From positions 62,001 to 126,000 of the forward strand of contig JAJDUT010000080.1 of assembly GCA_022826515.1 (NCBI GenBank): DNA of 64,000 nt, given 5' to 3'. Source of the DNA: Candidatus Latescibacterota bacterium (lineage in GTDB: Bacteria; Latescibacterota; UBA2968; UBA8231). This document shows, one piece after another, positions 6,593-61,721 of the stretch; positions within the stretch are counted from its first letter, which is position 1, and each line of letters starts with the position of its first letter. The translations under genes and the position numbers were made by a program. The notes beneath the pieces were generated by a model. The model was not told the origin of the DNA. It saw nothing but the letters and a program-made list of their open reading frames with translations, and searched no databases.

Positions 6593-7945
6593 GTGACGGA
6601 GCACTCCCTCCAGGCTGCCAAGACCTGCGAGCTTCACGTCCACATCGGCGGCAGCCTTTTTGCCGCCGATCTCCTCGACTTGGCCCGCGACCACTACGAA
6701 AAGATCGACTGGTCGCTGTTTGTCGATAGCTTTGAACGCACATATCACCGGCGGCCCGATCCGGTTGCGCTGTTCCGCGAGGTGCTCCACAGCCAACGTC
6801 TCGACGCGCTCAAGGCGCACTGCGTGTACGGCGCGGAAGACGGCGGCGACTTTGCCCATTTCCAAGCCAAGTTCAACTTGGCGATCTGCATCTATCGCCA
6901 TTGGTGGAACGTCTTGGGCGAGCCAGAAGAAATTTTGCACCGCGTCTTTGCCCACCATCGCCGCGAAGGGCTGCGCTACGTCGAATACCGCGCCATGGCT
7001 CCCTACGACCACATCCAGCCCGAAGCCTTCGCGCAGTTTCACGAGCTGACTGCTCGCGCCATTGCCCAAGCCTGCACCTCGGACTTTACCGCTCGCTATC
7101 TCATCAGCCTGCCGCGCTGGGCACCGCTCGAATGCTACAAGTTGGTTCAACGCCTGCTCGACGAAAACGAGGATTTGATTCCCACGATCGTCGGCCTCGA
7201 TTTCTGTCACTTTGAGGAAGGCTATCCGCCCGCGAGCACCCGCGCCTTCTTCCGCCGCCTGCGCCGCGACAACCAACTGCGCCCGAAGCGCGCCCTCGAC
7301 GTGGCCTATCACGTCGGTGAGGTGTACTTCGATAAGTCGCTCGAAAGCGCGGTGCGCTGGTGCCACGAAGCCGCAGAGTTGGGGGCGCTGCGTTTGGGGC
7401 ACTGCACTGCGCTCGGGCTCGACCCGGAAGTTGCCGTAGCCCGCCGGCCCCAAGCCCACGAGAGGGAGCGGGTCAGCGAACGCTTGGCTCAGATTGCCTA
7501 CGATTTGCATCACAAGGCCGCATTGGAAGAATTCGGCGTTCCGGTCGATGACCAAGCCCTGATGCAGGAGCGCAGCAGCCTCTCGTCCCGTCCCGGCGAT
7601 GCGCTGGTTTGCCGCGCATACGATCCCCCGGGCCTCGAAGCAGTGCGCCAGCGGCAAGACTTTGTGCTCAGCCGCTTGGCTGCGCGCGGCATCGTAGTAG
7701 AGACCTGTCCGACCTCCAACTTGCGCATCGGTGCCGTGCCCGACGCTAAAGATCACCCGGTACACCGCTTCTTGGCCTCTGATGTCCGACTGGCTATCGG
7801 TGCCGACGATCCCGGTCTCTTCGACTGCACACTCGCCGACGAGGTCAACTGGGTCCAGCGCCACACTGGCATGACGCCTGACGCGCTACAAGCCCGCCTC
7901 GGCGATCCGCGCGACTACCGCTTCGGCCCGCGTCGCACCCGCTAG
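6593..7945 (+). CDS. Adenosine-deaminase-like metal-dependent hydrolase
   Basis: 450 residues from a GTG start directly after the aldo/keto reductase stop. Family landmarks are present: the metal-binding HxH near the N-terminus (CELHVHIGGS, His15/His17), a YHVGEVYFD stretch corresponding to the HAGE loop, LGHCTAL corresponding to the RIGHG motif, ETCPTSNL, and GADDPGLF corresponding to the metal/catalytic TDDP motif. The product is about 100 residues longer than ordinary adenosine deaminases (about 340), with extra sequence in the middle. A purine or nucleoside-like deaminase is the best guess. It could act on a different amine or lactone, as other amidohydrolases do. Confidence 0.78.
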   Translation: MTEHSLQAAKTCELHVHIGGSLFAADLLDLARDHYEKIDWSLFVDSFERTYHRRPDPVALFREVLHSQRLDALKAHCVYGAEDGGDFAHFQAKFNLAICIYRHWWNVLGEPEEILHRVFAHHRREGLRYVEYRAMAPYDHIQPEAFAQFHELTARAIAQACTSDFTARYLISLPRWAPLECYKLVQRLLDENEDLIPTIVGLDFCHFEEGYPPASTRAFFRRLRRDNQLRPKRALDVAYHVGEVYFDKSLESAVRWCHEAAELGALRLGHCTALGLDPEVAVARRPQAHERERVSERLAQIAYDLHHKAALEEFGVPVDDQALMQERSSLSSRPGDALVCRAYDPPGLEAVRQRQDFVLSRLAARGIVVETCPTSNLRIGAVPDAKDHPVHRFLASDVRLAIGADDPGLFDCTLADEVNWVQRHTGMTPDALQARLGDPRDYRFGPRRTR

Positions 7946-7951
7946 GAACCC

Positions 7952-9433
7952 ATGATTACCCCGCAAAAGATGTTCAAGGGGTTTTTCTATACCTTGGGCA
8001 CGGGCTATGCGGCGCGGCTGTGCAGCGTGGGACTGACGGTCCTGATCAAAAGGCAACTCGAGCCCAGCGTTTTTGCCGATGTGTTTTTGGGCGTGACGGT
8101 CTTTACCATGCTGTCCAGTCTGCGCGAATTCGGCCTAATGCACGCGCTGTTGCACTTCCAAGACCGGGTCGAGGAATTCGTCGGCACGCATTTTGCGCTG
8201 AATGTCTGTATTACCCTGCTGTCGTGTTTGTTGACTAGCGGGGTCGTCTTGGCCTTGACGTTGCTTTTCCCAGCGGATTTTTCTTGGACTTTCGCCCAAG
8301 TCGCGTGGGTGCTGACGGCGCTGCACTTTGTGCGCCAACTGAGCCTGACTTCAGAGGCTCTGCTGAGGATGGATTTTGAGTTTGGCCGGCTCTCCCTGTT
8401 GCACGGTCTAGGGACGCTGTTGGCCCTGGGCAGTGCGCTGTTGGCGGCCCGCGCCGGGTGGGAAGAGTGGAGTCTGATATTGGGGGGGTGGACTACGTAC
8501 TCGGTGCTCAGCGTGGTGTACGTGCTGTTTTTTTCTACTGCTACTTGGTGCAGCCGTCCCCTGCGTCGCGCCTCCTTGCACTTTGACTGGGTTTGGGCGC
8601 GCCGCTTGTTGGGCTATGGCGTGTGGATTTGGATTGGCTGGGTGTTGCAGATTTTTATTTGGTGGTACGACAAATTGGTCGTGCGCTTGGTAGTAGGCGA
8701 TACGGCGCTCGCGCTCTACGAGACGGCGTGGTGGCTGGTGCAGATTCCCACTGCGGTCATCGCGCATATCATCTTCAACTACAGTAGTGCCCTGTACTCG
8801 CGGTATCAACACGAGCGCGAGCGATTAGGCGAGTTGTTCTCCAAGATGATCAGCCTAGTGCTAAGAGTGTCGGCTCCGGTGTCGTTGATTTTGGTTTTTA
8901 ATGCCCGCGAAGTAGTCACCCTTTTAGGCGGCCAATGGGCTGGGTCGGCGCGCATCGTGGTTTGGCTGGCGGCGTATGCGCTGTTGCGCCCGCTGCTCAG
9001 CGATGGATTTAGCCTACTGTGGGCCGTAGGGGCGACGCGCCGGTCCGCGTGCATCGTGGGGATGCAGGGGGTAGTGGCTCTTTTTGCCGTCCCGGCGCTG
9101 GCCGTGTTGTGGGGTGCGGAGGGTGTGGCGTACAGCATGGGCGCGGTGGCTGGCGTGGGTTTTTTAGGACTGTGCGTTGGCCTGCGCTCCTATGTGCGCG
9201 TCAATTGGTTCAAGGTATTGGCTGCGCCGGCTGTGGGATTGTTGGCCGCCGCGGTATGTGGATGGTCGTACGACCGTTGGGCCTTGGATTATGTGGTGGG
9301 CGATTTTGTCTTGCGGAGTGGGATTATGGCGTTGGCGTACGGGATTGTTCTCGGAATACTAGAGCGCCGCACCATCGTCGAGGAGCTTGGGCACTTGCGC
9401 CGCATTATGCGCGGGAGCGAGGAGGAGGAATAG
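7952..9433 (+). CDS. Oligosaccharide flippase / polysaccharide biosynthesis membrane protein
   Basis: 493 residues with about 12-14 hydrophobic segments spread over the whole length, and an N-terminal amphipathic start (QKMFKGFFYTLGTGYAARL). This matches the Wzx/RfbX-like branch of the MOP exporter superfamily, which moves lipid-linked sugars across the inner membrane. It starts six bases after the previous stop codon, so it may be in the same transcript. Its end overlaps the end of convergent purN by 29 bases. No glycosyltransferases lie nearby to identify the glycan. Confidence 0.8.
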   Translation: MITPQKMFKGFFYTLGTGYAARLCSVGLTVLIKRQLEPSVFADVFLGVTVFTMLSSLREFGLMHALLHFQDRVEEFVGTHFALNVCITLLSCLLTSGVVLALTLLFPADFSWTFAQVAWVLTALHFVRQLSLTSEALLRMDFEFGRLSLLHGLGTLLALGSALLAARAGWEEWSLILGGWTTYSVLSVVYVLFFSTATWCSRPLRRASLHFDWVWARRLLGYGVWIWIGWVLQIFIWWYDKLVVRLVVGDTALALYETAWWLVQIPTAVIAHIIFNYSSALYSRYQHERERLGELFSKMISLVLRVSAPVSLILVFNAREVVTLLGGQWAGSARIVVWLAAYALLRPLLSDGFSLLWAVGATRRSACIVGMQGVVALFAVPALAVLWGAEGVAYSMGAVAGVGFLGLCVGLRSYVRVNWFKVLAAPAVGLLAAAVCGWSYDRWALDYVVGDFVLRSGIMALAYGIVLGILERRTIVEELGHLRRIMRGSEEEE

Positions 9434-10013
9434 GGATTTCGCCGGCCGCGATCTGCGCGAGCGTCGCCGCGTAGAGGTGGTGTTCCACTGCTAATACCCG
9501 CTTCTGTAACGTTTCGGGCGTGTCTTCTGCTTTCACTGGAACCTTCTCCTGTGCGAGTACCTTCCCGTGGTCGTATTCTTCATCCACCAAGTGGACTGTC
9601 GCTCCGCTCTCGCGCTCTCCAGCGGCCATCACGGCCTCGTGAACCCGCATCCCATACATGCCCTGTCCGCCGAACTTGGGCAACAGGGCGGGGTGGATGT
9701 TCAAAATCCGCCCTTCGTAGGCCGCCAAAACCTCCGTCCCCAGCTTCTTCATGTATCCGGCTAGGCAAATCACTTCGACCTCGTGTCGCTGCATGGCCGT
9801 CAGAATCGCCGCCCCCAGCGCCTCCCCGTGCGTCCGCTCGCTCAGGTGGTACGCCGCGATGTTCGCCTGCCGCGCTCGCGCCAGTGCGCCCGATTGCGAG
9901 TTGTTGCTAATCACCACGCGCGGTTCGGCCGCTAGCGTCCCCGCCTGACAAGCGTCGATGATAGCCTGCATGTTCGAGCCGGTGTGCGAGGCGAGAAACC
10001 CCAGTTTTAGCAT
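9405..10013 (-). CDS. purN: Phosphoribosylglycinamide formyltransferase
   Basis: 202 residues. Transfers a formyl group from 10-formyl-tetrahydrofolate to GAR in purine synthesis. Visible motifs are the phosphate-binding SHTGSN near residue 10, the catalytic LNIHPALLPKF (Asn and His), and ESGATVHLVDEEYDHG with the catalytic Asp. Length is normal for PurN. The ATG follows directly after the arsC stop codon (TAA then ATG), so the two genes are co-transcribed. The C-terminal 29 bases overlap the convergent flippase gene. Confidence 0.93.
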   Translation of the reverse strand: MLKLGFLASHTGSNMQAIIDACQAGTLAAEPRVVISNNSQSGALARARQANIAAYHLSERTHGEALGAAILTAMQRHEVEVICLAGYMKKLGTEVLAAYEGRILNIHPALLPKFGGQGMYGMRVHEAVMAAGERESGATVHLVDEEYDHGKVLAQEKVPVKAEDTPETLQKRVLAVEHHLYAATLAQIAAGEIPIPPPRSRA

Positions 10014-11217: not shown

Positions 11218-12449
11218 GACTGCGTCCCATGCCCCCAAGCGAAGCCAATTACGACGAGGCCAAAGTTCCTTCGTACTCGTTGCCCGACCCGCTAACAATG
11301 GCCAGCGGCGAATCCGTGGCCGACGCGGCTGCTTGGACCGAAGTGCGCCGCCCAGAGATTCTCCAGCTCTTCAAAACGCACGTCTTCGGCGAAATGCCTG
11401 GGCCTCTGCCCGGCATCCGTTTCGTTACCACCGAAGAGGGCGAGGCTCTTTCAGGTCGTGTTCTGAGACGCCAAGTCCGCGTGTGCTTTACCGATGACCA
11501 TAACGGCCCGAGCATGGATATCCTCCTCTATCGCCCCGCCGATGCGTCTGGCCCGGTGCCGGTCTTCTTGGGTCTCAATTTCTTCGGCAATCACTCCATC
11601 CAACGCGATCCTAAGATCCACCTCAACACCCGCTGGATGCGCGCCGAGGCGCAAAGTGGCATCGTCAATCACCGCGCCACCTTCAACTCGCGCGGTTGCT
11701 TGGAAAGACGCTGGCCCGTCGCCAAGATCATCGAGCGCGGCTACGGCTTGGCTACTATCTACTGCGGCGACCTCGATCCCGACTACGACGATGGCTATCA
11801 AAACGGCGTCCATCCGCTGTTCTACCAAGAGGGGCAAAACCGGCCCGCCCCCGACGAGTGGGGTGCCATCGGTGCGTGGGCGTGGGGCTTGAGCCGGGCT
11901 GTGGATTATCTGGAAATCGACCCGGACTGCGACGACGAGCGGGTCGCCGTGCTCGGCCACTCGCGGCTGGGCAAGACTGCGCTGTGGGCTGGTGCCTGCG
12001 ATCTGCGTTTTGCCTTGGTCATTTCCAACGATTCCGGCTGCGGTGGGGCGGCCCTGTCGCGGCGGCGCTACGGCGAGACCGTCGCGCATATCAACCACGC
12101 GTTCCCGCACTGGTTCTGCGACAATTTCAGACGCTATAACGATGCCGAAGACGAATTGCCCGTAGATCAGCATCAGCTCTTGGCCCTTTGTGCGCCGCGT
12201 CCGCTCTACGTGGCCAGCGCCGTTGAGGACCGCTGGGCCGATCCGCGCGGCGAATTCCTCGCGGCCCTCGCCGCCGATCCCGTCTATCGCCTGCTCGGGA
12301 CCGACGGCCTGCCTGCCACGCAGATGCCCGCCGTTGATCAGCCGGTCATGGGCCAGATTGGCTACCACATCCGCAGCGGCGGCCACGACCTCGCCGAGTA
12401 CGATTGGGAGCAATACTTGGACTTTGCCGATCGCCATTTGGAGCGTTAG
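11214..12449 (+). CDS. Glucuronoyl-esterase-like (CE15-type) alpha/beta hydrolase
   Basis: 411 residues from TTG at 11214, whose TTG overlaps the preceding TGA; an ATG five codons on (11229) is an alternative start. The nucleophile motif [11 protein letters not shown] matches the G-x-S-R-x-G-K serine motif of CE15 4-O-methyl-glucuronoyl methylesterases. [14 protein letters not shown] and a late SGGHDL fit the catalytic His region. CE15 enzymes cut ester links between glucuronate side chains and lignin or other alcohols. No clear signal peptide is seen, so the enzyme may be cytoplasmic and act on imported fragments. The neighbours are a PhyH oxygenase and a sugar-acid dehydratase. Confidence 0.82.
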
Positions 12450-12451
12450 CC

Positions 12452-13612
12452 GTGCAAATACAATCCATCCGCGTCGTTGATCTCAAGATTCCACGCAATC
12501 CGCCCAAAACCGCGCCCCGCCGTCCCTCTTGGAACCAGAGTTCGCCGCGTTCGTTGCCGATTAACAAGTATCCAGAATTTTCGCGTCTTCCCGGCCAGAT
12601 GCCGGGCATGGGCGGTGGCCCCGTCTGGGTGCAGATCACGGCTGAAGATGGCACTTGGGGTTTGGGCAACTGCTCCTTTGGTGCGCCGGTTGCCGCCATC
12701 GTCGAGCAGGTTTTCGCGCCCCTGCTGACGGGCCGCGATTGTCTGGCCACGGAATTTCTCAACGACCTGATGTGGCGCGCCGCTCAGCGCCTCGGTCATG
12801 CTGGGACCGCAGCCGTTGCCCAAAGCGGGATCGATTTGGCGCTCTGGGACCTCAAGGGCAAGCTGCTGGGTCTGCCTGTGTATCGCTTGCTCGGCGGCCC
12901 CTGCCGCGACCATCTCGAACTCTACGCCACGGGCGACGATCTCGACTGGGGTCTCGAACTGGGGTTTAGCGCCTTCAAGGTTACCAATCCGGTTCACTAC
13001 CGCGAGGGCCAAGAAGGTCTCAATCGCCTTGAAGACAAAATCGCCCAAGCGCGCGAGACCATCGGCCCGGACTGCGAGCTGATGCTCAACGCGGTCATGT
13101 CCTACAACGTCGAATACGCCGTCCAAGTCGCCGAGCGGCTCAGGCCCTACCAGATGCGCTGGATTGAGGAACCGCTGATTCCCACGGATCTCGAAGGGCA
13201 CATCGCGCTCAAGCGGGCTGCTCCGTACGTGCCCATTGCCACCGGCGAGGACCACCACGGCCGTCAGGCCTTCCGCCAGCTAGTCGAACACCGCTGCGTC
13301 GATGTGCTGCAACCGGATATTAAGTGGTGCGGCGGGCTTTCCGAAGCGGTCAAGATCTACTACATCGCCGAAGCCGCCGGCCTTGTCACCATTCCTCACG
13401 GCGGTGCCAACAGTGCCTACGGCCAACACTTCGCCTTTGCCTTTCCCGAGTCTCCGATGGCCGAGTTCTGGCTCGGCTCGCCCCCGGGCATTCCCTTGGA
13501 TGAAGTTCACACCATACCGGGTACGGCCGTGCCCCAAGATGGTCGCTTGGTCCCTTCGGACGCGCCGGGTTTTGGCATGGAAATAGCAGACGAGTGGATC
13601 GCACCGCGCTAA
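12452..13612 (+). CDS. Enolase-superfamily dehydratase, L-rhamnonate-dehydratase-like
   Basis: 386 residues from GTG at 12452, two bases after the esterase stop. An in-frame ATG at 12404 lies inside the esterase gene and adds no family sequence. The closest remembered family is rhamnonate dehydratase: IDLALWDLKGK, VYRLLGG, YATG, RWIEEPL, GEDHHG, QPDIKWCGGL and IPHGG all fit. The catalytic Asp/His dyad (QPD and PHG) is kept. Two metal ligands are Glu239 and Glu266. The first, normally Asp (LMLDCWM in E. coli RhmD), is Asn213 here (LMLNAVM). It probably dehydrates an acid sugar, with the esterase and PhyH genes as operon partners. The Asn change makes substrate and activity uncertain. Confidence 0.85.
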   Translation: MQIQSIRVVDLKIPRNPPKTAPRRPSWNQSSPRSLPINKYPEFSRLPGQMPGMGGGPVWVQITAEDGTWGLGNCSFGAPVAAIVEQVFAPLLTGRDCLATEFLNDLMWRAAQRLGHAGTAAVAQSGIDLALWDLKGKLLGLPVYRLLGGPCRDHLELYATGDDLDWGLELGFSAFKVTNPVHYREGQEGLNRLEDKIAQARETIGPDCELMLNAVMSYNVEYAVQVAERLRPYQMRWIEEPLIPTDLEGHIALKRAAPYVPIATGEDHHGRQAFRQLVEHRCVDVLQPDIKWCGGLSEAVKIYYIAEAAGLVTIPHGGANSAYGQHFAFAFPESPMAEFWLGSPPGIPLDEVHTIPGTAVPQDGRLVPSDAPGFGMEIADEWIAPR

Positions 13613-56620: not shown

Positions 56621-58084
56621 CTAAATGTCGTCAAAGGGATAGAGTCTGCGGCCCAGCCGCTTAAAGGCCAAGTTGGCATCGGCCGGAGCGTGTACCGATG
56701 GTTCGGAGATCACTTGGATCTGGCCGGCCCACGGCTCAAAACCAGCGCGGAAATGGGCCGCAGACTTGACGCCGACATAGCGCATCTGCTTTGGGTCCAA
56801 ACCCAAGGTGCGGGAAAACGCCGTGCAGAAGGGTTGCTCGCGCTTGTTTACCAATAGCACGTGTACTCCGCCTTGGCGGATGTGGGCCGAGGGGCCCATG
56901 GTGCCGTCTAGGCCGGCGTACATCGGCCCGTCGTAGCGAAAGCGGCCGTCGCTCAAGGCCACTACTTCGGCCCGCATAGAGCAAGGCTCACCTTGCAACG
57001 AGGACGCCTTGCCGCCCACCTCTAAATCGAGCACCGCACCGACGCCTGCTTGGTGGCAAGCGGCCACGGCTGCGGGATCGACGATGTACAGGACGCAGGC
57101 GTCTTGCAGGTCGGCTGCTAAAAAAGTCCGCAATAGCCCGGTGCTGTCGCCGGGCGAACCGCCGCCGGTATTGTCGTTGCGGTCGGCCAAGACCACGGGA
57201 TAATGCCCCTGTTTGTCGGCCTCTTGCAGTGCCTCTGCGGTAGAAGGCATGGGTGCCTGCCAATCGGCTCGACGCTCCCAGATCCAAGCAGCTAATTCGT
57301 CGGCGCAGGATTGGGCTAGGGTGGGGTCGTTGTCGGTGGCGACGTACACGGAAGCGCCCATATCGGGGATGTCGGCTAGGGGGAAGCAGGTGGCGATGGA
57401 ACCGCAGATCACGCCGGGCCGCGCCTCAATTTGGTGCAGGTATTCGATGGCTTGGCGCATGGGTGGATGGGCCGTCACTTGGTTCATGCCCCAGACTAAG
57501 GGCAGTTGGTGCAAGGCCATGGTCGGCCGCACGCCTTCCCGCACCATGCTCACTAGCACGTCGGCGCACTCGCGGCCCCTCGGTGCCATATCGACCTCTG
57601 GATAGGTCTCCCGCCCGATCAGGACATCGGCGGTTTCGATCATGGCGTGGGAGACATTGGAGTGGATGTCCAGTTGCCCGACGATGGGCATATCCGGGCC
57701 GACCAAACGGCGCACTGCGGCGAGGATATGTCCTTCGGCGTCGTCAATGCCCTCGGCCACCATGGCTCCGTGCAATTCCAATAAAACCCCGTCGATAGTC
57801 CCCGCTGCCTCGATGCCGTCGAGGAGTTCGCCTACGAGCCTGTCGAAAATGGGGCGGGGCGTTGGGGCGCTGGGATGGGCCTCGGCTAACATCGTTGGCA
57901 CTGCTTCAAAGCCGTGCGCCTCGGCCCCTTCGATGAAACCGCCGATGGGCGTATTGACCCCGGTAAAGCGCTCGACGATTGCCGCTCCGTGGAGATAGCT
58001 GCGCTCCCGGAAACTGTCCAATGTGGTGGCTACATTTGTGAAGGTGCTGCTCTCGTGGGAAATGCCTCCTATGGCTACGCGCAT
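56621..58084 (-). CDS. M81-family metallopeptidase (MlrC-like)
   Basis: 487 residues from ATG at 58084, preceded by AAAGGAG; an upstream in-frame start at 58117 would overlap yggU. The start MRVAIGGISHESSTFTN is diagnostic for the MlrC family. LHGAMVAEGIDDAEGHIL, VGQLDIHSNVS and YPEVDMAPRG carry the zinc ligands (Asp, His, His expected). The C-terminal MlrC domain (ILADRNDNTGGGSPGDSTGLL, VGVKSAAHFRAGFEPWA) is complete. MlrC is known from linearised microcystin degradation, but most members are of unknown role. Confidence 0.9.
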   Translation of the reverse strand: MRVAIGGISHESSTFTNVATTLDSFRERSYLHGAAIVERFTGVNTPIGGFIEGAEAHGFEAVPTMLAEAHPSAPTPRPIFDRLVGELLDGIEAAGTIDGVLLELHGAMVAEGIDDAEGHILAAVRRLVGPDMPIVGQLDIHSNVSHAMIETADVLIGRETYPEVDMAPRGRECADVLVSMVREGVRPTMALHQLPLVWGMNQVTAHPPMRQAIEYLHQIEARPGVICGSIATCFPLADIPDMGASVYVATDNDPTLAQSCADELAAWIWERRADWQAPMPSTAEALQEADKQGHYPVVLADRNDNTGGGSPGDSTGLLRTFLAADLQDACVLYIVDPAAVAACHQAGVGAVLDLEVGGKASSLQGEPCSMRAEVVALSDGRFRYDGPMYAGLDGTMGPSAHIRQGGVHVLLVNKREQPFCTAFSRTLGLDPKQMRYVGVKSAAHFRAGFEPWAGQIQVISEPSVHAPADANLAFKRLGRRLYPFDDI

Positions 58085-58113
58085 CTGCTGCTCCTTTCCG
58101 TTTTTTGCCTTTG

Positions 58114-58374
58114 TCACTTCGACTCCGACAGGCGGGCGAAAACTTCGCCTGCCGTCATGTCCTCAATGCACAGCCGCTTGTTCCGCGCCTTGTGCCCCCG
58201 GACAATATGCACCTTGCCCTTGGCGACCTTGAGCCGCTTCGCCAGCAGTGCCACTACTGCGTCGTTGGCCTTGCCGCCTTCCGGGGCCGCTGTTACTCGC
58301 GCTGTTATTTTGTCGCCGTTGACTTCGACGCTGTTGCGCCCGGCCTTCGGCTGCACTCTGATGTTGAATTCCAT
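58114..58374 (-). CDS. yggU: YggU/DUF167 family protein
   Basis: 86 residues: FNIRVQPKAGRNSVEV, TAAPEGGKANDAVVALLAKRL, HIVRGHKARNKRLCIE are typical of the UPF0235/YggU family, small alpha/beta proteins of unknown role. The complete copy; its first codons lie in the 125-bp direct repeat, of which the second copy is at 60749-60873. It is the first gene of the minus-strand operon with M81, Nudix and the barrel protein. Confidence 0.9.
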   Translation of the reverse strand: MEFNIRVQPKAGRNSVEVNGDKITARVTAAPEGGKANDAVVALLAKRLKVAKGKVHIVRGHKARNKRLCIEDMTAGEVFARLSESK

Positions 58375-58422
58375 GCGAAGCGGTTGCTAAATCGACGCGA
58401 ACCAGTCCTTGTCCACTTCCAC
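58298..58422 (+). repeat. 125-bp direct repeat, copy 1 (flank of R-M module)
   Basis: Matches 60749-60873 with about 11 mismatches. The last 41 bases are identical. It includes the yggU start codon and first 26 codons (functional here) and, beyond them, the last 11 codons of mrr (ending DWFASI), here a remnant detached from the gene. Most mismatches lie in the yggU part, many at third codon positions. Confidence 0.9.
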
Positions 58423-59735
58423 TAGGGCTGACGGAACCAAGTATTTACCATTTCATATAACTCACTTGGACTGTCATTCGACGCGAATAGCGAGAAATCA
58501 CGTATAGCGTTGTGTTCGGATTTTGGAGTACTCTGTGCGTGAGAAGTATCTTCGCCAAGTGAATCGAATAGCGTCTGTTGGCTATAATTACCTTGGCGAC
58601 GTGCATCTTTGTTTACGAAATCGCCCATAGCCTGAAGTCCGCTATCAAAGCGCTTTAGTGTCGTCTTTATCGATTCAATGCTGTTATCTGCACCTATCCA
58701 ATTACGTTGCATTTCGTCCGCAACAGCCAGGGTTGTCCCAGAACCGGCAAAACAATCAAGCACCATATCACCGGGATTAGAAGAAGCAGCAATAATTCTT
58801 CTGATTAGTCCTGGATTCTTTTCAGTTGGGTAGCCAGTAATTTTTATATTCTGATTATGTGCATCACGGAACTCCAACCATATGTCCTGAACACCAACTC
58901 CTGGATGTTCATCAAGATAAACCTTTCTTCTTGGATTTCCGTTCTTTGACCAGAATATTTCTCCGCGCGCGTCCATTTCATCTAGCCTCTTAGGCGTGTA
59001 CTGCCAGTGTTTGCCCGGAGGAGGCATTTTTCCCCTCCATGGTTTACCAGTTTCCCCCTTGCGTGTTCCCGGAGCATGAATAGGGACTTTCATATACTTT
59101 CGTCCAGTACCCTCTTCAACGTACTGATATTCTTTTTTTCTTTCTTCAGATAAAGGAACAGTTTGTTTATTCCATATATACTTATCTGTTTTGGTGTAAA
59201 AAAGTACGAAATCTGCGATATTGCCGTATGTTTTTCGCGTATAGTTTTTAGGATTACATTTCTTCCGAACGATCATATTTCTATAGTTTTCTGGTCCAAA
59301 TACTTCATCCAAGATGAGTTTCATTTCGAAAATCATTTTTTCATCTAGGTGTAGGTAAATCGATCCTTTACTCGACAACAATTTATGAAGCAAAACAATT
59401 CTTTTACGTAAAAATTCAACGAACGGAGCACCACTCAAGGTGTCTTCATATGCTCGTGACTGTTTTCGAGAAACAAATTGACTTTGAGTTGCAAATGGAG
59501 GGTCTATGTATATGAGATTTACCTTTCCGCATATATCAAGATCTGTCACAAGGATGCGAAGGACATCGAGATTATCGCCAAAATACAATCGCTTATGAGA
59601 TGAATTGGAATGGAGCTTATCAAAAGGGATTATGGAATCATTGAATATTTCTTCCTCAGTTGATTTACCTCTATAATCGAGATGCACTTCACTATCTAAG
59701 AGAGTATTATTTTTTTTAGGAATACCGATTGCCAT
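58422..59735 (-). CDS. Type II/III N6-adenine DNA methyltransferase (mod)
   Basis: 437 residues. Beta-class order: motif IV IYIDPPFAT (about residues 76-84) precedes motif I DCFAGSGTTLAVA (about 320-332). DPPF is typical for N6-adenine enzymes of the type III Mod and beta-class type II groups. The region between holds the target-recognition domain. A large drop in GC content relative to the flanks is visible. It forms a pair with the putative restriction gene 17 bases upstream, both on the minus strand, the pair being inserted between direct repeats. RBS AAAGGAAAGGG. Confidence 0.9.
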   Translation of the reverse strand: MAIGIPKKNNTLLDSEVHLDYRGKSTEEEIFNDSIIPFDKLHSNSSHKRLYFGDNLDVLRILVTDLDICGKVNLIYIDPPFATQSQFVSRKQSRAYEDTLSGAPFVEFLRKRIVLLHKLLSSKGSIYLHLDEKMIFEMKLILDEVFGPENYRNMIVRKKCNPKNYTRKTYGNIADFVLFYTKTDKYIWNKQTVPLSEERKKEYQYVEEGTGRKYMKVPIHAPGTRKGETGKPWRGKMPPPGKHWQYTPKRLDEMDARGEIFWSKNGNPRRKVYLDEHPGVGVQDIWLEFRDAHNQNIKITGYPTEKNPGLIRRIIAASSNPGDMVLDCFAGSGTTLAVADEMQRNWIGADNSIESIKTTLKRFDSGLQAMGDFVNKDARRQGNYSQQTLFDSLGEDTSHAQSTPKSEHNAIRDFSLFASNDSPSELYEMVNTWFRQP

Positions 59736-59752
59736 ATCTAATACCCTTTCCT

Positions 59753-60628
59753 TTAGGAGTGTAACCAGTCCATAGTGATACGTTCAGAGAACATTCTGAG
59801 TGTTACGACTTTAATTTTTCCATGCCATGAATTTTCAATATGAGCGTAATCACTCCACATTGAGCCAAGAAGTAACCCTGGGCCATCGTTTAAGAATATC
59901 ACTTTCACGTCTATACCTTTTGATTTAGCATACCCAAGAATTTCGCTTGCACAATCTCTATACTGACCCGTTCTATCGTCTTCTTGTGCGCCACCTCTAT
60001 CAGAATCATAACGGGCCAAACCTATGGCGATTGGGGTACCATCACTGAGTAACACAAAATCGACTGGTCGCTTCGGGTTGGGATAATCTTCAAAAATTTC
60101 GCCAAGGTTCACATCTTTTCCGGCACGTTCAGGCCCAATAATCTCAAGTTCAGAATATCTCTCTCGGATGATTGTGAATAAACGCTCTGTCAGATCATAT
60201 CCCTTTCTACCACGATCCTTATATTCCCAAAGAACAGCGCATAATGCCTCATCGGGCATGGGGCGAGATTGGAATGCCGACTGGACTTCATTGATTGCGC
60301 GAAATCCTTTGCCAAACTGATCGCATATATCTTGAGCAGCAGATTTTTTCTTCAGCATTTCTACTGGAGTTTCTGGACTTACATATTTCCTAAATACCCG
60401 GCATAGCTGTATTCGCATCCATTGCGGCGTGGTTTCAGCTATTGCAAGAAAGAGATCAGTTGAAGAATGTGAAGATTTCAACAAATACTCAAATGTAATC
60501 AATACAGGCTCATATAGCTTACACGCGAGCGGCAGTATATTAGGGTAATACTCGCCGGTTGATAACGTGATCCATAGATGACCATCCTCTTGATAGTCGG
60601 CGAATGATAACTCTCTTCGTTTCGTCAA
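59753..60628 (-). CDS. Putative restriction endonuclease of the R-M module
   Basis: 291 residues from a TTG start with AGAGAGGG upstream. No named family is certain. A PD-(D/E)xK-like arrangement may be RPVDFVLLSDGTPIAIGLARYDS (Asp, then a hydrophobic strand, but with Leu-Ala-Arg in place of ExK). GLLLGSMWSDYAHIENSWHGKI ends the core. Assigned by position next to the methyltransferase, matching AT-richness and size. If the active site is really altered it may be inactive. Role: cleave unmethylated DNA at the site protected by the partner. Confidence 0.6.
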   Translation of the reverse strand: MTKRRELSFADYQEDGHLWITLSTGEYYPNILPLACKLYEPVLITFEYLLKSSHSSTDLFLAIAETTPQWMRIQLCRVFRKYVSPETPVEMLKKKSAAQDICDQFGKGFRAINEVQSAFQSRPMPDEALCAVLWEYKDRGRKGYDLTERLFTIIRERYSELEIIGPERAGKDVNLGEIFEDYPNPKRPVDFVLLSDGTPIAIGLARYDSDRGGAQEDDRTGQYRDCASEILGYAKSKGIDVKVIFLNDGPGLLLGSMWSDYAHIENSWHGKIKVVTLRMFSERITMDWLHS

Positions 60629-60702
60629 TTTTCCCTCTCTTCTTAAAAAATATCCAATTGAGCAGTAGGGGAGTCAAATATGCCTCTATACATAGGCAAA
60701 GC

Positions 60703-60825
60703 CTACGTATGGGCGAGGCCCCTACGCCCCAACTGCGCCGCAGCGACCCGTGCTGTTACCCTGTCGCCATTGACCTCAACGCTGTTGCGCCCAGCCTTCG
60801 GCTGTACTCTGATGTTGAATTCCAT
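60703..60825 (-). pseudogene. Duplicated 5' fragment of yggU
   Basis: A second ATG at 60825 begins MEFNIRVQPKAGRNSVEVNG, identical to intact YggU for 21 residues, then RVTARVAAA with conservative changes, and then unrelated codons to a stop at 60703. It is the yggU part of repeat copy 2, truncated by the R-M module. The remaining bases to 60628 hold only small inverted repeats (TGCCT/AGGCA near 60680) before the restriction gene start. Confidence 0.85.
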
Positions 60826-60873
60826 GTGAAGCGCTTGCTAAATCGACGCGAACCAGTCCTTGTCCACTTCCAC
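60749..60873 (+). repeat. 125-bp direct repeat, copy 2 (flank of R-M module)
   Basis: Partner of 58298-58422. Here the mrr end is continuous with the mrr gene body, whereas the yggU start is cut off after about 27 codons. The two copies thus show the original order mrr then yggU, with the module 58423-60748 placed between. Confidence 0.9.
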
Positions 60874-61688
60874 GACCTCGACCATCTTCGCGGCCACGCC
60901 GAGTTTGAGTTCCTTCATTTTGTCCATTAGCAATTCGCCGTCAATCAGGTCTATCGGCGTCGCGCCATCCCGCGTGGCTTCTCGTTGCGCCTCTATTGTG
61001 AAGCGACCCGTCGTCAAGATAAGGCCCTTTTCCGCTCGTCCCACCATCGCGCCGCGAAAGTCCCTGACTACGCTCGCGCCAACGCTGCCGCTGTAGCGCT
61101 TGCACTGGAACAGCACGGGAAAGCTAATCAACCCCGCGAGGCGGATTATTCCGTGTCCGTCGATTCCGCCGTCGCTCGATTTTCCCGTGACCTCAACCTC
61201 GATAAAGCCCGATTCCCGCAAAAGCCTTTGGCACAAGCGTTCGAATGCGTCGGGAGGGATGTTGCGGAGGGTGTCGAGCAAATCCTCGCGCCAAGAAGCG
61301 GTTTCATCTGCGGGGTCTTCGGCTGAATTTTCGATTTCTCGGTCAGAGGGGCTTCTTTCTTAGTTTGGGCTTGTTTACGAGCTTCTCTCTGTTGACGGAG
61401 CAATCTCTCAATTTCTTTGGGATCAACATGTTGTGTCTCCCACCCTTTAGCAGTAAGAGACCATACGCCTCTCTCCGAATTATCAATAAAACCTAACCGT
61501 TTGAGTCTGCTTATCGAAAAACCTACGTTGTATTTTGTCTGATCAGGGGGCAGTCTCATGTTTTCAATCACCTTATTTTTGAGTTCACCCCTAGAAGCAC
61601 TACCTCCAAGCTCGTGGAGCGCAGCAAGTATCGGATCTAGAAAATCATCACGTCTTAGAACGCCATCTATATTGACATTCTCAGTCAT
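60838..61688 (-). pseudogene. mrr: mrr-type restriction endonuclease gene, frameshifted
   Basis: From ATG 61688 (RBS AAAGGAG) the N-terminal winged-helix Mrr_N domain reads DDFLDPILAALHELGGSASR, RLPPDQTKYNVGFSISRLKRLGFIDN and GVWSLTAKGWE. After KSKIQPKTP the frame leaves homology. In the next frame NSAEDPADETASWREDLLDT leads into the catalytic domain: AFERLCQRLLRESGF, SSDGGIDGHG (Asp), FQCKRYSG (QxK) and the end DWFASI. An added A in the run at 61328-61331 (AAAA to AAAAA) joins the frames to about 283 residues. Mrr cuts methylated DNA. Homopolymer position allows sequencing error or ribosomal slippage. Confidence 0.85.
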
Positions 61689-61721
61689 CACAAAAACTCC
61701 TTTTAGGTTGTCCACGTCGCC

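Follow-up and report, generated by a model that had tools for sequence, protein, structure and literature searches.

How restriction-modification (R-M) genes move between genomes without a transposase is an old and open question, for which insertion with a long target duplication is the main clue. The question is raised again by a locus in a window of 64,000 nucleotides (the whole stretch of DNA that was analysed), which falls within a sponge-associated clade of Latescibacterota. Here an R-M pair lies between two long direct repeats that differ from each other. Are the two copies siblings, made when the target was duplicated, or are they alleles of two species? This one clade has both filled and empty sites, spread over several species, and five independent duplications whose copies can be dated by their silent changes, so that the question becomes testable.

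Architecture of the insertion

The genes of this locus are on the minus strand. The intact downstream neighbor of the R-M pair is yggU (DUF167; 58114..58374; PF02594, E = 2.2e-22), whose end is overlapped by the gene of an M81 metallopeptidase (56621..58117; PF07364 and PF07171), the anchor used for finding relatives. The upstream neighbor is mrr (60838..61715), with the domains Mrr_N and Mrr_cat (PF14338 and PF04471). Repeat copy 1 (58298..58422, minus strand) consists of the intact yggU start, a spacer and a detached 48-bp mrr tail, and the homology to empty relatives stops at 58422. Repeat copy 2 (60746..60873, minus strand) consists of the mrr end, the spacer and ~26 codons from the start of a cut yggU. 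The initial annotation had described the contents of the two copies in this way, and had put the differences between them at about 11. The gapless alignment of 58298-58422 with 60749-60873 gives exactly 11 mismatches in 125 bp. A repeat search extends the direct pair to 137 nt with 89% identity (58286-58422 and 60737-60873), whereas the duplicated stretch is 126-128 bp when measured against the empty relatives G003 and G004.

The inserted segment (58423..60745) contains two genes and is missing from G003 and G004. Its GC content is 41.4% compared to 57.8% for the window, and the GC3 values of the two R-M genes are 34.0 and 36.6% compared to 72.5-77.5% in six neighbors. The AT-rich composition had been read as a sign of acquisition, and these values, well below those of the neighbors, uphold that reading. 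A GC-rich end piece (60691..60745, 67.3% GC) separates the AT-rich part from repeat copy 2; it is also found in G001 and is mostly deleted in G008. A GC-rich motif near 60711 has three matches, and 9 of 100 shuffles reach as many. The 109-nt junction piece has only weak matches outside the locus in the genomes of the eight relatives. The insert does not look like a transposon or an insertion sequence: Pfam annotates only the two R-M genes and no transposase in it, and the duplication is not short. Among the 25 repeat pairs listed, out of 29, no inverted pair joins the two ends of the insert.

The module is real, but two details of the first description need correction. The TAG stop codon of the methyltransferase gene (58422-58424) coincides with the insertion junction, and mrr is not one open frame, being split in the window by a 1-nt frameshift near 61335. 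The gene is open in G001, G003, G004 and G008. A loss of Mrr imposed by the R-M system is ruled out by the open mrr of the module carriers G001 and G008; thus the frameshift in the window is separate from the R-M system, or is a sequencing error. The part of the window that encodes the N-terminal region of Mrr (61340-61715) is AT-rich (43.6% GC) and represents an allele unlike those of G003, G004 and G008. The N-terminal domain of Mrr seems to have been swapped between species.

The restriction and modification genes

The gene of the type II restriction endonuclease (REase; 59753..60628) has a TTG start and encodes 291 amino acids. The protein matches no Pfam, NCBIfam or PADLOC family. Its homolog is BstEII (PDB 9ibq; E = 4.6e-84, residues 8-290), and the alignment of the two takes in the run ARYDSDRGGAQEDDRTG. 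The adjacent gene (58422..59735) encodes an N6/N4 DNA methyltransferase of 437 amino acids (PF01555, E = 4.9e-45; PADLOC MTase_II, E = 4.1e-135). An REase homologous over its length and an adjoining PF01555 amino-methyltransferase agree with a BstEII-type system. The window's system is chromosomal, unlike BstEII, and belongs to a clade in which a junction common to several species marks the insertion.

The REase has matches in four plasmid records and none among phage records. A plasmid protein of Geobacillus stearothermophilus, which is 50.4% identical to the REase, also adjoins a site-specific DNA-methyltransferase. Matches were found in 3 of the 64 genomes of the phylum and, among the eight relatives, in G001 and G008 only. 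A BstEII-like pair in another genome of the same phylum (G057, locus L241) lies on a 6.2-kb contig without flanking repeats. The window contains 4 copies of GGTNACC, which we take to be the recognition sequence of BstEII, against 14.9 expected; this scarcity says nothing about the module, because relatives without the module are also low (0.49-0.64 of the expected number).

The five homologs of the methyltransferase that come next after the ten closest (P0131-P0135, ~655 amino acids) possess a C-terminal HhH-GPD DNA glycosylase domain. The window methyltransferase ends before the position of this domain, at the insertion junction. Loss of the domain at the junction would be one reading, but P0136 and P0138-P0142, among other homologs, are without it too.

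Filled and empty junctions

The M81-anchored search returned 80 loci. In seven of them (L001-L006 and L008) the M81 protein is 92-97% identical to that of the window over most of its length, and in L012 it is partial and 94% identical. The bins of these close relatives are labeled Latescibacterota, Latescibacteria or Gemmatimonadetes/Gemmatimonadota. L001 (genome G001) is collinear with the window over the whole module and has both repeats. L002 has the left repeat and part of the methyltransferase gene, up to the contig end. L003 (G003) and L004 (G004) have mrr, a single repeat copy and yggU, which is the empty junction, and is also the normal mrr-yggU junction that the initial annotation had expected on removal of the module and one repeat. 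L005 and L006 have no mrr at the locus and L008 retains only an mrr tail. A further contig of G008, the genome of L012, runs from mrr through a degenerate right repeat into the REase start, where the contig ends. In this repeat copy 2 (L082, ~1288-1460) a stretch with a long GC-rich palindrome interrupts the sequence, and the junction side is missing. Thus, of the nine genomes (the window and G001-G008), four have the module, two of these in part because of contig ends, two are empty, and the remaining three lack an intact mrr at the locus.

Misassembly is ruled out because L001, from a separate assembly and another species, has identical junctions. With the same junctions in a second species and single-copy empty sites in two others, the module is a real insertion with long target duplication, as had been proposed from the window alone.

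In a five-gene tree of the window and the eight relatives (supports 64-99) the module carriers are scattered. The window and G001 are 92.1% identical in the REase gene and 93.5% in the methyltransferase gene at the nucleotide level, and 90.0-94.9% identical in seven flanking genes, including the catalytic part of mrr. The R-M genes have therefore diverged about as much as their flanks, and nothing points to a recent transfer of the module itself. The distribution of carriers fits either an old presence followed by several losses or an old exchange; precise loss of the module between direct repeats would be easy. Purifying selection has maintained both R-M genes, judged on the window-G001 pair, in which pS is 0.167 and pN is 0.038 for the methyltransferase, and 0.272 and 0.027, respectively, for the REase.

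Other cassettes with the same architecture

The window was compared to 140-347 kb around the locus in five relatives (G001, G003, G004, G006 and G007), and gaps of at least 300 bp opposite less than 60 bp in the empty genome were kept. This yielded 77 gap clusters, some of which represent one event seen in two genomes. Five independent insertions overlap by at least 64 bp in the empty genome in a sliding scan, and all of them are at the end or start of a gene. One is the R-M module, with an overlap of 126-128 bp. The second is a TonB-dependent receptor gene of G006, which overlaps by 64-69 bp in the scan and has repeats of 83 bp with 85.5% identity by direct comparison. It is positioned between yggU and the M81 gene (L006, ~7379-10010) and is a further event affecting yggU, at its opposite end. 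The third is a thioesterase-like gene of G006 (72 bp in the scan; 69 bp, 84.1% by direct comparison). The fourth comprises the genes of a TIR/TPR protein and an SMC-like ATPase, possibly a defense pair, in G004 (L151, 1059-7272; G004:C52:311059-317272), between 115-bp repeats of an SGNH hydrolase gene start (88.7% identity). This site is empty in G007, and among the 25 genomes of the family a second, partial SGNH match is listed for G004 only. The fifth is a MazF/PemK-type toxin gene of G006 (L155, ~8400-9400) between 140-bp repeats of the start of an enolase-family gene (84.3% identity), for which the window provides the empty site (12420-12559).

The length of the duplication varies by place (69, 83, 115, 126 and 140 bp). 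The repeats of the four cassettes without R-M genes are 69-140 bp long, 84-89% identical and at gene ends, in the stretches compared. Shorter repeats (18-45 bp) are found around some other inserts, such as HigBA-like and VapBC-like pairs, named from sequence. The suggestion that long target duplication is a route of mobility for R-M genes holds for the module of the window, but not as a specialty of R-M genes, because the four other cassettes of the clade have the same anatomy.

Divergence of the repeat copies

The comparison for each event was between the stranded gene fragment and the functional gene of the same genome. Over 26 codons, the yggU fragment of the window differs at 10 positions, by 8 silent and 2 replacement changes (pS 0.46, pN 0.033). 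The third-position bias noticed at the outset is confirmed, as 8 of the 10 differences in these first 26 codons are at third positions. The silent bias has a probability of 0.00017 if both copies are neutral and 0.0045 if only the fragment is. There are 7 silent and 4 replacement differences for the yggU fragment of G001, 8 and 5 for the SGNH fragment, 7.5 and 6.5 for the enolase-family fragment of the MazF locus, and 2 and 2 for the yggU tail fragment of the TonB locus. The fragment of the thioesterase locus has 3 silent and 8 replacement differences and a stop codon; this fragment and that of G008 look like plain decay. The pool of five events leaves out the G001 pair, and therefore the R-M event is counted once. 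It contains 28.5 silent differences in 98.8 sites and 23.5 replacement differences in 321.2 sites (pS 0.288, pN 0.073). The corresponding P value is 2.3e-6 under full neutrality, 0.0076 if only the fragment is neutral, and 0.00037 without the thioesterase locus.

The fragments might be constrained. If the yggU fragment were still translated, for instance as a leader peptide before the REase gene, it would evolve like a gene without any exchange. The cut yggU start of copy 2 is indeed open for ~40 codons in both the window and G001 (a 44-amino acid open frame in the latter), and the two fragments differ from each other by 8 silent and 3 replacement changes. However, the unrelated SGNH hydrolase and enolase-family fragments show the same pattern, and the fragment of G008, next to an REase start that is open, is interrupted and has lost part of its sequence. 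We regard such constraint as very improbable.

The states of the fragments are informative as well. Four comparisons together have 45 differing sites, and at 36 of them the state of the fragment recurs in another species' functional gene; held-out orthologs give shared fractions of 0.73-0.81. Random mutation would produce a mean of 7.9 such sites and third-position mutation a mean of 14.4 (P < 1/2000). The strictest null, with a 15-fold weight on variable sites, raises the mean for the pooled comparisons to 24.1, and 36 is reached in 0 of 4000, whereas the single pairs give P values of 0.33 (window), 0.18 (SGNH), 0.012 (G001) and 0.0018 (MazF locus).

The simplest reading of the anatomy is that the recipient's own DNA was duplicated over a long stretch and the unused parts then drifted neutrally, with no exchange between species. 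A repeat divergence of 11-16% is within reach of drift, given an interspecies silent divergence of M81 of 0.20-0.26; this range comes from 4 of 15 pairs, as a fixed offset had shifted the other 11 out of register, like two pairs of yggU with G006, and these were not used. The decayed appearance of the thioesterase and G008 fragments agrees with drift, and AU tests on the short alignments do not reject the grouping of any fragment with its own functional copy. Drift is opposed by the silent bias, which persists in the window and in the pool even when the fragment alone is neutral, and by the pooled shared states. Furthermore, the copies are not near-identical in any of the five long duplications, although drift would lead one to expect insertions of all ages. 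We regard drift of an own-DNA duplicate as rather doubtful. The initial annotation had offered duplication followed by drift, or entry together with a donor allele; the silent bias disfavors the former and the latter fits better, within AU tests that reject no grouping. The two repeat copies resemble versions from different species more closely than they do a recent duplicate, and from the pooled silent bias and shared states we judge an interspecies exchange of alleles to be likelier than drift.

Proposed capture and spread of the module

We propose that a BstEII-like R-M pair was captured at the mrr-yggU junction in a Latescibacterota lineage, with no recognizable transposon and with a duplication of ~126 bp, and that the filled loci were then exchanged between species by homologous recombination. 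We hold this to be somewhat better than an even chance. The filled and empty relatives show that ~126 bp of the junction was left on either side of the insert, so that neither mrr nor yggU was cut; selection would presumably retain those insertions whose duplication spares both genes. At the four further places the clade has likewise acquired single genes or small cassettes at gene junctions. Because ordinary homologous DNA flanks each filled locus, the locus could then travel between sympatric related species, and the stranded fragment would be exchanged in the process. The repeat copies would consequently differ like alleles of two species, as the pooled silent bias and shared states suggest. 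The proposal is weakened by the single-pair values for the window and SGNH under the strictest null, by the AU tests, by the two fragments that resemble plain decay, by the flank-like divergence of the module between the window and G001, and by the BstEII-like locus of G057, which has no flanking repeat.

The original junction and its long duplication may have been made by template switching, a staggered break or one-sided homologous joining. As the main route, Ku-dependent end joining is unlikely because Ku (PF02735) was found in none of the eight close relatives G001-G008; although the bins may not be complete, G006 and G007 each consist of one chromosome. Ku is present in 7 of the 25 genomes of the family.

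The duplication could also have arisen in one step by homology-facilitated illegitimate recombination, if a donor fragment carrying the module beside the donor's yggU start recombined homologously at mrr and illegitimately at its opposite end. In this way a foreign fragment would appear together with working native genes, and a ComEC-type Competence domain is present in 6 of the 8 relatives. The process shares with the locus of the window the joining of foreign DNA beside homologous DNA and the lack of a transposase. However, its usual product, according to the portion of PMC3240628 consulted, is a deletion of similar size at the illegitimate end, whereas the window has a duplication. It also needs a donor yggU cut by the module, and no such genome was seen. 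We consider this route unlikely, and continue to favor capture followed by exchange between species.

Relation to known systems and significance

Insertion with long target duplication is an already known kind of event, and the module of the window adds a member to it. The pattern was described in Helicobacter pylori, often with R-M genes (Nobusato et al. 2000, as related in the part of PMC1643837 consulted), and R-M insertions of this kind (Nobusato et al. 2000; Furuta et al. 2010) are covered in PMC3031569, PMC1643837, PMC3874152 and PMC4978471, the last of which includes an R-M cluster with a flanking direct repeat. As far as these sources go, the known cases share with the window an R-M unit, long direct repeats of which the empty relative has only one, the lack of a transposase, and a long duplication of variable length. 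The window differs in belonging to another phylum, in allowing a comparison between species, in its silent-biased repeats with a divergence of 11-14%, and in the four cassettes without R-M genes that have the same anatomy. R-M and toxin-antitoxin genes of sponge-associated Latescibacterota are mentioned in the portion of PMC12993501 consulted; a limited literature search, partial in its sources, found no account of long target duplication in Latescibacterota.

A broader reading can be put forward only tentatively. Gene junctions may be docking places in this sponge-associated clade, where any cassette enters with a long duplication that leaves both neighbors intact and the filled junction spreads from species to species by homologous recombination, the diverged duplication being the alleles of two species. 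If this is true, insertion with long target duplication, which has been thought of as an R-M trick, would be in part the footprint of gene exchange between species.
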